The notes beneath the pieces were generated by a model. It made no database searches and had not been told where the DNA came from. It saw nothing but the letters and a program-made list of their open reading frames with translations. 54,212 nt of DNA from NCBI GenBank assembly GCA_031177355.1, contig JAPSGR010000010.1, positions 1-54,212 on the forward strand. Reading direction: 5' to 3'. The DNA is from Candidatus Nitrosocosmicus sp. GTDB lineage: Archaea; Thermoproteota; Nitrososphaeria; Nitrososphaerales; Nitrososphaeraceae. The position numbers and the translations under genes were made by a program. Each line of letters opens with the position of its first letter. The stretch's first letter is position 1. This document shows, piece after piece, positions 45,371 to 51,780 of this stretch.

Positions 45371-46597
45371 TTGGCGTCACCGAATAGTGAAACAAAAGGG
45401 ATTGAAAATGTACTAATACTTCAGGGTGGCGGTTCATTAGGTGCTTTTGGATGCGGCGTCTACAAGGCAATTGAAAAACAAGGATTCAATTTAGATATTG
45501 TGGCTGGAACGTCTATTGGTGGTATAAATGCTGCCATCATAGCAGGAACAAAAGATAAAGATAATACAGCCCGAAAATTGGAAGAATTTTGGATCGAACT
45601 TTCAGAAGGGTTCGTTCCAACTGGTGATCCCATTAATAGTAGCCTTTTTAATCCATTAAACATCTTTTTTCAAAATCAAATCTATTCTTCTCCCATAAAC
45701 CATACATTTCCAGATTTAGCTAAGACAGCGAAGGAACAACAAGTTAAGTTAAATCAGATTAAATCATTTTACAGTTCTGTAATATATGGTAACAGCAAAT
45801 TTTTTAAACCACGGTGGTTACAACCTCAGAATTATTTGGATTTTGAATATCTTACACCTTCAGAATGGACCTATTTGTATGATCATAGCCCGCTAATAAA
45901 AACTCTTGAAAAGTATATTGATTTTGAAAAATTAAATCCTAATTCCCAAAATAACACACGATTAATATTGACAGCGGTAAACGTACTTAATTCACAGGCA
46001 TTAACATTTGATAGTTACTCCCAGCAAATCAAACCAAAGCACATCCTAGCAACATCTGCCTATCCGCTATATAATTTTCCTTGGGTTGAAGTAGAAAAGG
46101 GAGTATATGCTTGGGATGGTGGACTTTTAAGCAATACTCCAATGCGTGAAGTTCTTGATGCGTCACCTGTAACAGATAAAAAGATATTTTTGGTTGAAAA
46201 TTATCCTAAAACAGTTGCCAAATTACCAACAAATCTAGGTGAAGTGTATCACAGAGCAAGAGATATTATCTTTTCAGACAAGACAGAGCATAATATAAAG
46301 ATGGCCGCAATAATAACAAGGTACCTTGACTTTATCGAAGAATTATATCAAATTATCGAAAAGAACAAAGACAAATTAGATTTAAATAAAAATGTCGAAA
46401 AAAAAATAAATCGAAAATATAAAAAATACCGTAAAGACCATGGCGCTGAAATCAAGGAGATTTATTATATTTCTAGAGATGAAGAATTTCCCCATATCTT
46501 TGAAAATGCCGATTTTTCCCCACAGACCATCCTAAGTTCTATAAAGGAAGGCGAAGATAAAGCAACAAAGGTGATCAGGGGGCGTTCTCACCGCTAA
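45371..46597 (+). CDS. Patatin-like phospholipase
   Basis: A 408-residue patatin-family lipid acyl hydrolase from TTG 45371. The oxyanion hole LQGGGSLGAFGCGVYKAIEK, the nucleophile elbow GTSIGGIN (Ser in GxSxG, about residue 48) and the catalytic Asp in WDGGLLSNTP are all present, so the Ser-Asp dyad is intact. A charged, Lys-rich C-terminal tail follows (KNVEKKINRKYKKYRK). Substrate may be membrane lipid or acyl ester; archaeal ether lipids make a classical phospholipase role uncertain. Confidence 0.9.
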   Translation: MASPNSETKGIENVLILQGGGSLGAFGCGVYKAIEKQGFNLDIVAGTSIGGINAAIIAGTKDKDNTARKLEEFWIELSEGFVPTGDPINSSLFNPLNIFFQNQIYSSPINHTFPDLAKTAKEQQVKLNQIKSFYSSVIYGNSKFFKPRWLQPQNYLDFEYLTPSEWTYLYDHSPLIKTLEKYIDFEKLNPNSQNNTRLILTAVNVLNSQALTFDSYSQQIKPKHILATSAYPLYNFPWVEVEKGVYAWDGGLLSNTPMREVLDASPVTDKKIFLVENYPKTVAKLPTNLGEVYHRARDIIFSDKTEHNIKMAAIITRYLDFIEELYQIIEKNKDKLDLNKNVEKKINRKYKKYRKDHGAEIKEIYYISRDEEFPHIFENADFSPQTILSSIKEGEDKATKVIRGRSHR

Positions 46598-46989: not shown

Positions 46990-47202
46990 CTATGCGAGGG
47001 ATCGGTTAAAGCAATAAATGGCTTCGCCGTATTCTTGAAGGTGGTAAAAGGCATTCCCTTTCATGTACCATATATCAAATTCATTAGTTGATGAACTTTC
47101 GAGGGATCTATTAAAACATCTTATTGCTATTTCATATGCTTTCTTTTTGTAATATTCCAAACCTTTTTCAAACCAGTAATTTTCTAATTCCTTTTTCATC
47201 AT
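46990..47202 (-). CDS. Two-repeat TPR mini-protein
   Basis: A 70-residue protein made of two TPR-like units: YWFEKGLEYYKKKAYEIAIR with CFNRSLE, and IWYMKGNAFYHLQEYGEAIY with CFNRSL. Tetratricopeptide repeats mediate protein contacts. Could be complete or the N-terminal remnant of a longer TPR gene; after the second repeat the frame stops immediately. ATG start at 47202. Confidence 0.65.
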   Translation of the reverse strand: MMKKELENYWFEKGLEYYKKKAYEIAIRCFNRSLESSSTNEFDIWYMKGNAFYHLQEYGEAIYCFNRSLA

Positions 47203-47499: not shown

Positions 47500-49017
47500 T
47501 CAACAAACAAGATCATAAGTGTCAGTAACTATTTTTTGATATAAAGAATTATTTAGATCGATTCTATAATAATCTAATTTATCGGGGTCGTACTTTTTCA
47601 CGATCTCTATAAGTTCCATCTTCTTCTTACGCTCTAAAATCACTTCTCTGTGAGCATAGCCTGTGACATATTTATAACCACTGTTAATCGCTTCGTTCAA
47701 GAATTTTATCCTTAGAAAATGGCCACCAGTCCCTCCCCAGAAACCCTCTATTACACTCACACCTTCTAAATATGCGGTATTTTTTAGCCCAAAGTTAAAA
47801 TCATTGGTCCCAGGACGCAGTTTGTAATTTTCCAAAGGTCCTCCCTTAGCATATCCTATTATTTTCCCATTTGCGGTATCAACCCTTAACGTTACTATAA
47901 TTGTAGAATTATCTAAAAGCGTTTTAACAAAATCATCCTCATTTGTTTGAATTAAAGTAGGAACACTTTTGTGGATCTTAATCAATGCCTCTATTGTTTC
48001 ATTCTTTAACTTCTCTGTGTCATTTTCAATTACAAAAACCAGTCTGGTTCCTTTTTTCATATCTCTAAGCCCAAGTTCCTTGTTCCATGATTTTCTAAAT
48101 CCTGTTACATTAGAATGAAAATTCCTTCTTAACTCAGATGGCAAATTTTCCATGATCAGTTCAAACATTTCTTTCTCATTCATCATTATATGGTCAAAAT
48201 ATTTTACAGAATTCTTGTTGATAACAGATGGATGCCATCCCAACGCGTGTGCATTGCGTCTTGCCATGTCCTTGGCATGCTCAAAGTCCCCAAGAGCATA
48301 GCCAGCAATTCTTTCGGACACTGAAAGAAACCATCCTAGTTTCAGATATCTTTCCTTGGTTTGATTGAGGCTCTCATGGAAAGCAGCTTTATCTAATAGC
48401 TGGTTTATTTTAACTTTTGAATATTCTGCTATTCTGCCTTCAAATGGATATGCGGTTCTATGAATAAGAGCCATCACAATATCCAAGTCTAAGCCAGCTT
48501 GCTCAATGAACTTTCTAATTTTTGAATCATTCCTAATGAAATATTCAACGCTATCCTCATTGGGTTTGTCAAATTCTTTTAAAGGATCATAATCATGAAA
48601 CAGCGCAGCCACAAAAAGATAGATTGTTTCTTTTTGAGAAAAATTGAATTTATTGAATTTATTAATTGCACCAATAGCAATCAATATAAAATATGCCGAT
48701 TCTAACTCATGTTGGATGTTATGATAACCGTAATAGTCATTACCTAAACCCTTTTTTGAAAATTCAGAGACGGTATGACGAAGAATATTCTTCAACCATT
48801 TTTCATCCAAGCCTAATTCCCTTCCGACTCTGATAATATTATTGCGTAATTCTGACTCAACAGTATCTCCCTTATGATAATGAAGCCACCAAGGGAACAG
48901 TTTTACTCTATTGTAGAATTCTTTGCCAAAATGAATGCCTTTGACCCGGAGGTTCGATGAGAATATGTTATTGGTTCCATAAAAAGGGCTCTTCTCACTA
49001 TCTTCCTCAAAGGACAT
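47500..49017 (-). CDS. HD-domain protein fused to a GNAT-like C-terminal domain
   Basis: A 505-residue protein with two parts. Residues about 60-260: an HD/PDEase-like domain with YHNIQHELESA (His99, His103), VAALFHDYDPL (His141-Asp142) and a later MALIHRTAYPFEG, the pattern of metal-dependent cyclic-nucleotide phosphodiesterases. Residues about 320-500: a region resembling GNAT acetyltransferases, with RLVFVIEND, ATI..VDTANGKIIGYAKGG and the acetyl-CoA-loop-like GVSVIEGFWGGTGGHFLRIK at 419-438. Between them is a helical linker with a second His/Asp set. A cyclic-nucleotide- or nucleotide-linked acetylation enzyme is conceivable; substrate is unknown. ATG start at 49017. Confidence 0.7.
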   Translation of the reverse strand: MSFEEDSEKSPFYGTNNIFSSNLRVKGIHFGKEFYNRVKLFPWWLHYHKGDTVESELRNNIIRVGRELGLDEKWLKNILRHTVSEFSKKGLGNDYYGYHNIQHELESAYFILIAIGAINKFNKFNFSQKETIYLFVAALFHDYDPLKEFDKPNEDSVEYFIRNDSKIRKFIEQAGLDLDIVMALIHRTAYPFEGRIAEYSKVKINQLLDKAAFHESLNQTKERYLKLGWFLSVSERIAGYALGDFEHAKDMARRNAHALGWHPSVINKNSVKYFDHIMMNEKEMFELIMENLPSELRRNFHSNVTGFRKSWNKELGLRDMKKGTRLVFVIENDTEKLKNETIEALIKIHKSVPTLIQTNEDDFVKTLLDNSTIIVTLRVDTANGKIIGYAKGGPLENYKLRPGTNDFNFGLKNTAYLEGVSVIEGFWGGTGGHFLRIKFLNEAINSGYKYVTGYAHREVILERKKKMELIEIVKKYDPDKLDYYRIDLNNSLYQKIVTDTYDLVC

Positions 49018-49696: not shown

Positions 49697-50182
49697 TTAT
49701 CGATCCTTCTTTGGAAATAAGTTATCTATAAACTCAAAAAAAGTTAATTCTATTAGATACATCGCATTTGACATTTCTATAACGCTGTCCCAAAAATATT
49801 GTTTACATGTGATCGAATTTACATCGATAAATAGATATTTTTCAACACTGATTACAGAATTTTCAATTTTGCAAAGTAATCGAATGGGTGATAATACCTT
49901 GTGCATTCGAATGAACAAATCATTCTGTACATCTTCTTTTAAATGTTCAAAATCGGACCTATCTTTAGGAGTAAAGGCAACACTCATTCTGAGTAAAAAG
50001 CCATCTTTAAATTCCTCGTCAGATACGATTTCAAAAAATTTAATACTCTCATTGGGTGGAAAGATCTTTGCATAGTATTCAAGATGATCTTTTTTGCTTT
50101 TATCCTCCTTAATCGTATAACCATAATCCTTTAACCACTGTAGTATCGTTTTATAGACTTGCTCCTTGTTACTATCAGTCAT
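49697..50182 (-). CDS. DUF2299-like protein, second paralogue
   Basis: A 161-residue soluble protein: YKTILQWLKDYGYTIKEDKS, YYAKIFPPNESIKFFEIVSD, DGFLLRMSVAFTPKDR, then VISVEKYLFIDVNSITCKQY and FWDSVIEMSNAMYLIELTFF. The pattern W-L-x-x-x-G-(Y/F)-x-(V/I)...D-G-F-x-(I/L)-R is shared with the 40.1-kb protein. Without the disordered N-terminal leader of that paralogue. Function unknown. ATG start at 50182. Confidence 0.7.
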   Translation of the reverse strand: MTDSNKEQVYKTILQWLKDYGYTIKEDKSKKDHLEYYAKIFPPNESIKFFEIVSDEEFKDGFLLRMSVAFTPKDRSDFEHLKEDVQNDLFIRMHKVLSPIRLLCKIENSVISVEKYLFIDVNSITCKQYFWDSVIEMSNAMYLIELTFFEFIDNLFPKKDR

Positions 50183-51177: not shown

Positions 51178-51780
51178 TTAAGTTATTTTTTCTAATAAAA
51201 GCGTTAACACTTTGATTCGGTTTGTATCATGTTTAAATTGATCTAAGTAGTATGAAGAAAACCCTGAAGGGGAGTCATCTAATGCTAAAAGAATTCTATA
51301 ACCCATATCGATAAAAGAAGAGGTAATCCAATTTCTCCACTTTTTATACTCCTCAATACTAACAGGTGAGAAGAATTCGTTTGTGCATTCAGTTATCAAC
51401 AAAAATTGACCATGATCCTTCATTTTTCTTAACATTTTTATGTAAAAAGGTTTCCACTTTGTGACGTTTTCAGATCCTATAAAGGTAGGGTGAGGAAGAA
51501 TTGAAATGAACATATTGACCGTGTCATCTTCTAATTTTGTAACTACATTTTCTATATCATCATTTACAAATAATATGTTACTAGCTGCACTTGTTGTCAA
51601 AGCACATGATTCTTCATACTGTAACCGGTCAATTTCAATGCCAATAAAGAAAATATCTTTATTCTTATTCCTATTTGACAAATCAAAAAGCATTTTCCCG
51701 TTGCCTGAACCCAATTCGAATACCAATTCCCTATAAACAAAAGGAAGTCTTTGTTTCGTATTCACCCATGTTTTTAACAA
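51178..51780 (-). CDS. TrmB-like class I methyltransferase
   Basis: A 200-residue SAM methyltransferase resembling tRNA (guanine-N7) methyltransferase TrmB: VFELGSGNGKMLFDLSNRNK, FIGIEIDRLQYEESCAL, NILFVNDDIENVVTKLEDDT, and ILPHPTFIGSENVTKWKPFY where bacterial TrmB has the PDPW...RH motif. The loss of the Arg/His-rich PDPW signature makes the exact substrate uncertain. Start is TTG or ATG at 51780 (MLKTWVNTKQRL). Confidence 0.7.
   Translation of the reverse strand: MLKTWVNTKQRLPFVYRELVFELGSGNGKMLFDLSNRNKNKDIFFIGIEIDRLQYEESCALTTSAASNILFVNDDIENVVTKLEDDTVNMFISILPHPTFIGSENVTKWKPFYIKMLRKMKDHGQFLLITECTNEFFSPVSIEEYKKWRNWITSSFIDMGYRILLALDDSPSGFSSYYLDQFKHDTNRIKVLTLLLEKIT

Follow-up and report, generated by a model that had tools for sequence, protein, structure and literature searches.

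The window, that is, the whole 54,212-nucleotide stretch of Candidatus Nitrosocosmicus sp. DNA analysed here, carries a gene whose product joins an HD/phosphodiesterase (PDE)-like N-terminal half to a GNAT-like C-terminal half (Table 1). The frame opens with an ATG at 49017 on the minus strand and ends at 47500, which agrees with the coordinates that an earlier sequence-only reading of this DNA had assigned to the 505-residue gene. The start codon is backed by starts of equal length among the closest relatives, and the frame is coding and not a chance one, with 71 of 72 family ORFs spanning both halves. The full-length structure model reached a pLDDT of 84 and a pTM of 0.75. Scans of the window protein against Pfam, NCBIfam and PADLOC gave no match, and the sole return of a phmmer search against PDB was a lipocalin (E 0.68); NCBIfam matches across 50 relatives were weak and scattered.

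Table 1. Features of the HD(PDE-like)-GNAT locus; positions are those of the window, residues those of the 505-aa protein.
Feature	Position	Strand	Basis
HD(PDE-like)-GNAT fusion gene P0001, 505 aa	47500..49017	-	ORF, translation, family, model
HD / class I PDE-like domain, residues 56-322	48052..48852	-	fold, profiles, hhalign to paralogue family
HNxxH motif, His99-His103	48709..48723	-	H99 and H103 invariant 50/50; aligned to PDE5 HNWRH
His141-Asp142, HD metal ligands (putative)	48592..48597	-	invariant 50/50; aligned to HD of PDE5
Glu235, candidate fourth metal ligand	48313..48315	-	E 26, D 24 of 50
GNAT domain, residues 323-490	47548..48051	-	model, Foldseek, VIA, Acetyltransf_1 in relatives
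Glu418, start of beta4, candidate general base	47764..47766	-	invariant 50/50; role inferred
WGGTGG loop, residues 427-432, place of acetyl-CoA loop	47722..47739	-	conservation, alignment
DUF2299 protein, upstream neighbour, 679-bp gap	49697..50182	-	context
Patatin-like phospholipase, downstream convergent	45371..46597	+	context

Gene order was compared across the window and 40 fetched loci (genomes, loci and families are designated by our handles G, L and f). The patatin gene adjoins or sits near the family gene in some other loci too, and a 70-aa TPR ORF lies between the two in the window (46990-47202, minus strand). As read from the neighbours, complex I genes are convergent with the fusion gene in f2 and f3, and in Nitrosocosmicus the patatin gene is the recurrent neighbour; a gene for a GlcD-like FAD-linked oxidase follows downstream on the same strand, separated by no more than 9 bp or overlapping as called, in 7 of 21 f9 copies (L041, L044, L045, L046, L047, L048 and L049). 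Frames of about 940 aa, considered as a longer fusion, were rejected as such, the GNAT gene stopping and the FAD oxidase following closely in the loci examined. No neighbour conserved across all lineages, and no operon pointing to a substrate, was found in the window and the 40 loci; since order is kept only within lineages, we claim no functional link from neighbours.

The N-terminal half, as modelled, folds like class I cyclic-nucleotide PDEs. Foldseek gave PDE5A as the best match (E 4.6e-5), and the best 50 VIA matches listed were all cyclic-nucleotide PDEs (Z 16.9-17.9), with 223-248 residues aligned, rmsd 3.2-4.6 and identity of 12-17 percent; a list of 50 leaves room for HD families other than PDEs. 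HMM alignment laid the YHNxxH...HDYD of the family on PDE5 (E 0.003). PDEase_I (PF00233) was the commonest Pfam match among the 50 relatives (35/50 at E<=1, best 8.6e-4); the window protein itself does not reach the PF00233 gathering score and has no match to this model at E<=10. These results confirm the HD/PDEase-like N-terminal domain of the sequence-only reading, and the translation and the alignment of 50 place His99, His103 and His141-Asp142 exactly where it had put them. The HD motif that it reported is present, in the class I PDE form HNxxH...HD and not as a plain HD. In class I PDEs the HNxxH motif provides the general acid and a metal ligand. Residues H99, H103, H141, D142, P145, K147, P152 and E154 are invariant in 50/50 family members, N100 is kept in 46/50, and the Glu235 column aligns by hhalign with an Asp that is invariant in 7/7 members of a paralogue family (see below). 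The half also has a motif of its own, RTxYPF. Because the class I signature HDxDHxG is replaced by HDYDP-x-K, with P145 invariant in 50/50, we use the term PDE-like and refrain from assigning the half to the class I PDEs.

Folded alone with 41 family sequences, the C-terminal half gave a confident model (pLDDT 90.4, pTM 0.86) that is predicted to be a GNAT fold across nearly the whole domain. Of the 619 PDB chains that Foldseek returned at E<=0.001, the best 50 were all GNAT proteins; the best 50 VIA matches listed were likewise all GNAT-fold by title (Z 14.2-16.2). NatC came first (Z 16.2, 149 aligned, rmsd 2.8), tied, within about 1, with FeeM (15.6), LasI (15.4), RimI (15.3) and Ard1 (15.3). 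Pfam Acetyltransf_1 gave no match in the window protein; 26/50 relatives match at E<=1 (best 4.1e-7), and L061 and L060, scanned singly, exceed the cut-off. The isolated fold and both structure searches uphold the GNAT assignment that had been made from the letters, and a C-terminal fold of some other kind did not emerge. The segment quoted as the acetyl-CoA loop, GVSVIEGFWGGTGGHFLRIK (residues 419-438), fared less evenly: it stands where a GNAT has this loop, yet of the three fixed positions of the consensus it keeps one. The consensus for GNATs is Q/R-x-x-G-x-G/A; in WGxxGG the first and fourth positions are changed (no Q/R, no middle Gly) and the sixth is invariant. The altered loop is nonetheless conserved (W427 46/50, G428 49/50, G431 48/50, G432 50/50). 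In an alignment with thialysine acetyltransferase, weak when taken alone (E 0.34), WGxxGG falls on RGVGAG and Glu418 sits where the YLE of that enzyme lies. Residues E418, R436, R457, D482, Y483 and R485 are invariant in 50/50.

Each time the family was found, its two halves came as a pair. The family was assembled as 72 ORFs from fetched loci, several of which contain one gene twice; the main alignment holds 50 of the 72 (omitted were genes already present under another locus id, sequences closely related to one retained, and L072), and alignments A3 and A4 comprise 42 and 41 of those 50 sequences. Both halves aligned in 71/72 ORFs, the exception being L072, which is cut by a contig end, and of the 35 invariant columns in the alignment of 50, the HD half contributes 24 and the C-terminal half 11. 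Half-specific profiles run against 300 genomes of the phylum found 53 GNAT and 53 strong HD matches, which on comparison of the two tables pair in 53/53 cases, of which 52 are in one frame and one (G162) is spread over two contigs; the remaining HD-profile matches in these genomes were only four paralogues and one sliver. The sequence-only reading had proposed to check both halves in Nitrososphaerales, where they are kept together in the family, and its counter-proposal, that they make up one known non-enzymatic family, finds no support, the window protein being without a Pfam or NCBIfam match. The divergence of the halves is correlated (r 0.87, with an identical nearest neighbour in 29/50), which is no evidence of coupling because shared ancestry predicts it.

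A search of 300 genomes of the order gave matches in 199 at E<=1e-3; 25 of these were weak (E about 1e-5 to 1e-10), those examined carrying the paralogue only, and 174 genomes of the 300 had strong fusion-family matches. In the phylum search of 398 genomes 72 matched, a few of them with the paralogue only, and none of the matches listed lay outside the order. Viral contigs and plasmids yielded no relative at the limits used, and a scan of genome contigs yielded one close relative, a number to be read in the light of the single protein used as query. AmoA (PF12942) was found in 21 of 61 order genomes, and the fusion in 18, all within those 21; it was present in 0/40 AmoA-negative order genomes, and G022, G043 and G056 have AmoA but not the fusion. 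Ammonia oxidisers form one clade, and for that reason the co-occurrence with AmoA is a lineage marker and does not prove that the fusion takes part in ammonia oxidation. Two candidates at the edges of the family were examined and discarded: frames of 540-580 aa, taken for a paralogue with another C-terminal domain, have the same GNAT after an insertion, and L086, which matches PF00233, reads as an unrelated dNTPase-type HD protein. Two copies of the fusion each occur in the f9 genomes G105, G114, G120, G126 and G150, those of G150 about 10 kb apart.

The same HD subfamily occurs a second time in the window genome, in an 807-aa paralogue (L002:493-2913 = G000:C51:4056-6476; also L082). Its HD domain matches that of the fusion with an hhalign probability of 99.3 (E 3.8e-20, 240 columns), and both share HNxxH, HDYDP and RTxYP. 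The paralogue differs by two apparent N-terminal membrane segments, read from the sequence, and by a TrmB-like domain that replaces the GNAT: Methyltransf_4 matches the C-terminus of L002 above the Pfam cut-off and is found in 4/5 further members scanned, and the profile of the paralogue family (seven aligned members, L002 and six orthologues) matches TrmB structures (E 4.7e-4). The SAM loop appears degenerate in some members. As judged from these profiles and motifs, one HD subfamily is joined to two different transferase folds within one genome. G022 and G056, which are without the GNAT fusion, carry the paralogue. A stand-alone TrmB-like protein is also encoded near the fusion gene (window 51178-51780, minus strand; Methyltransf_4 E 6.4e-6), and in a two-sequence comparison part of it weakly resembles the C-terminus of L002 (E 3e-4).

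The window genome (97 percent complete) has 11 matches to the class III cyclase model PF00211 in 9 frames, some frames being matched in several pieces. A search of it for the PF00027 cyclic-nucleotide-binding (CNB) domain found none. Cyclase L074 retains both metal Asp residues and the Asn/Arg pair of the cyclase motif. Among the 61 order genomes PF00211 occurs in 32, namely in 18/18 fusion-bearing genomes vs. 14/43 others (Fisher 3.9e-7, uncorrected for kinship). This link may reflect kinship, because cyclases occur in fusion-less lineages as well (families f8 and f10 and, likewise, the three AmoA-positive genomes without the fusion). PF00027 was missing from all five f9 genomes with the fusion and from the window genome, G002 and G032. 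The remaining 10 of the 18 have it, so that receptors besides the fusion may exist. Cyclase and cAMP phosphodiesterase genes of Thaumarchaeota are remarked on in a passage of a published work (PMC9289680).

Taken together, the fusion is best explained as a two-domain enzyme peculiar to ammonia-oxidising archaea, in which a nucleotide-binding and probably hydrolysing HD half gates acyl transfer by the GNAT half. Resident class III cyclases would make the ligand, most likely a cyclic mononucleotide; the HD pocket would bind this nucleotide and probably hydrolyse it with metal ions; the bound ligand would switch the GNAT domain, which would acylate a protein or a small-molecule amine; and hydrolysis of the ligand by the HD half would end the signal. 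We assign this reading a probability of about 0.4, since the GNAT loop is unusual and since, starting from the observed folds, conservation and distribution, we infer the ligand, the activity of either half, the substrate and the direction of coupling. A more elaborate version appears doubtful. In it, the product of the cyclases would be read by a receptor of PDE fold that is joined to an acetyltransferase and acts as a self-resetting switch by destroying its own ligand, with the TrmB-like sister protein as the membrane branch of the same system.

The signal could also run in reverse, the GNAT-fold half sensing acyl-CoA without transfer and tuning the PDE-like half, whose nucleotide hydrolysis would then be the output. 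A non-catalytic acyl-CoA sensor stays a live rival because the loop is unusual, WGxxGG standing nearly invariant in place of Q/R-x-x-G-x-G, and the paralogue, where the HD domain is joined to a TrmB-like domain with a degenerate-looking glycine loop, fits an HD output served by cofactor-fold sensors. The invariance of E418, which occupies the customary place of the base, and of R436, R457, D482, Y483 and R485, however, goes beyond the needs of a sensor, and we consider this arrangement rather unlikely, if the most probable of the competing explanations. It is unlikely, too, and slightly more so, that the protein is a bifunctional metabolic enzyme free of signalling, in which the HD half would cleave or dephosphorylate its substrate, a nucleotide or a phosphorylated amine, and leave the product to be acylated by the GNAT half. 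Weak matches to YfbR-like HD 5'-nucleotidase models (5/50 relatives), the presence of the fusion in 18/21 AmoA-bearing genomes, as would suit a housekeeping step, and the closely spaced GlcD-like oxidase gene of f9 are all consistent with such an enzyme; the exclusively cyclic-nucleotide PDEs among the best 50 VIA matches listed argue against it, and the oxidase neighbour is not retained in other lineages.

That the GNAT-fold half is of the acyl-homoserine-lactone-synthase or N-acyl-amino-acid-synthase type and makes a signal molecule is improbable: LasI (162 aligned) and FeeM (156 aligned) are among the longest VIA alignments, but their Z scores are tied with those of NatC, RimI and Ard1, and ordinary GNATs rank first in Foldseek. 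That the likeness is due to chance, or that a faulty assembly or gene call has merged two genes, has nothing in its favour, is already contradicted by the fusion in 53/53 pairs and 71/72 ORFs and can be dismissed.

Should the preferred reading of a nucleotide-gated acyltransferase hold, the fusion would be, to our knowledge, the first PDE-type, not CNB, domain controlling an acetyltransferase. Several sampled ammonia oxidisers (the window genome and the five fusion-bearing f9 genomes) have class III cyclases and no canonical receptor domain that we could find; for these nitrogen-cycle organisms the fusion is a concrete candidate receptor, which could combine nucleotide sensing with acetylation of a target, and through it the acetylation of proteins or metabolites may come under the control of a small signalling molecule. 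The two folds are known and their pairing is undescribed in the literature searched, where neither an HD-GNAT nor a PDE-GNAT protein was found, in accord with the initial impression that the combination is uncommon; it may exist elsewhere, because the search outside the phylum consisted of one close-relative scan, viral contigs and plasmids.

Compared with class I PDEs (PDEase_I, e.g., PDE5, PDE9 and PDE10), the protein shares the predicted fold of residues ~41-322 and the HNxxH...HD pattern and differs by its low identity, the HDYDP and RTxYPF motifs and the GNAT partner. With GNATs such as NatC/Naa30, RimI and Ard1 it shares the predicted fold of the whole C-terminal domain and the Glu at the start of beta4, whereas the WGxxGG loop, a C-terminal DYYR motif and a long conserved beta3-beta4 segment (KGGPLExYxLRxGTxDxNxG) set it apart. 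The closest parallel in domain layout is provided by type III GNATs, in which, according to passages of PMC8556138, a ligand domain controls GNAT activity, a precedent for ligand gating. Like the cAMP-gated mycobacterial Pat (Rv0998 / MSMEG_5458) described there, the fusion has a C-terminal GNAT preceded by an N-terminal domain of ligand type, although ligand binding is in this case a prediction, and gating is proposed here by analogy with Pat. Pfam finds no CNB domain (PF00027) of the Pat kind in the fusion; its ligand-type domain is not a CNB, ACT or Rossmann domain but has the HD/PDE-like fold, whose putative metal site could hydrolyse the very ligand that the domain binds.
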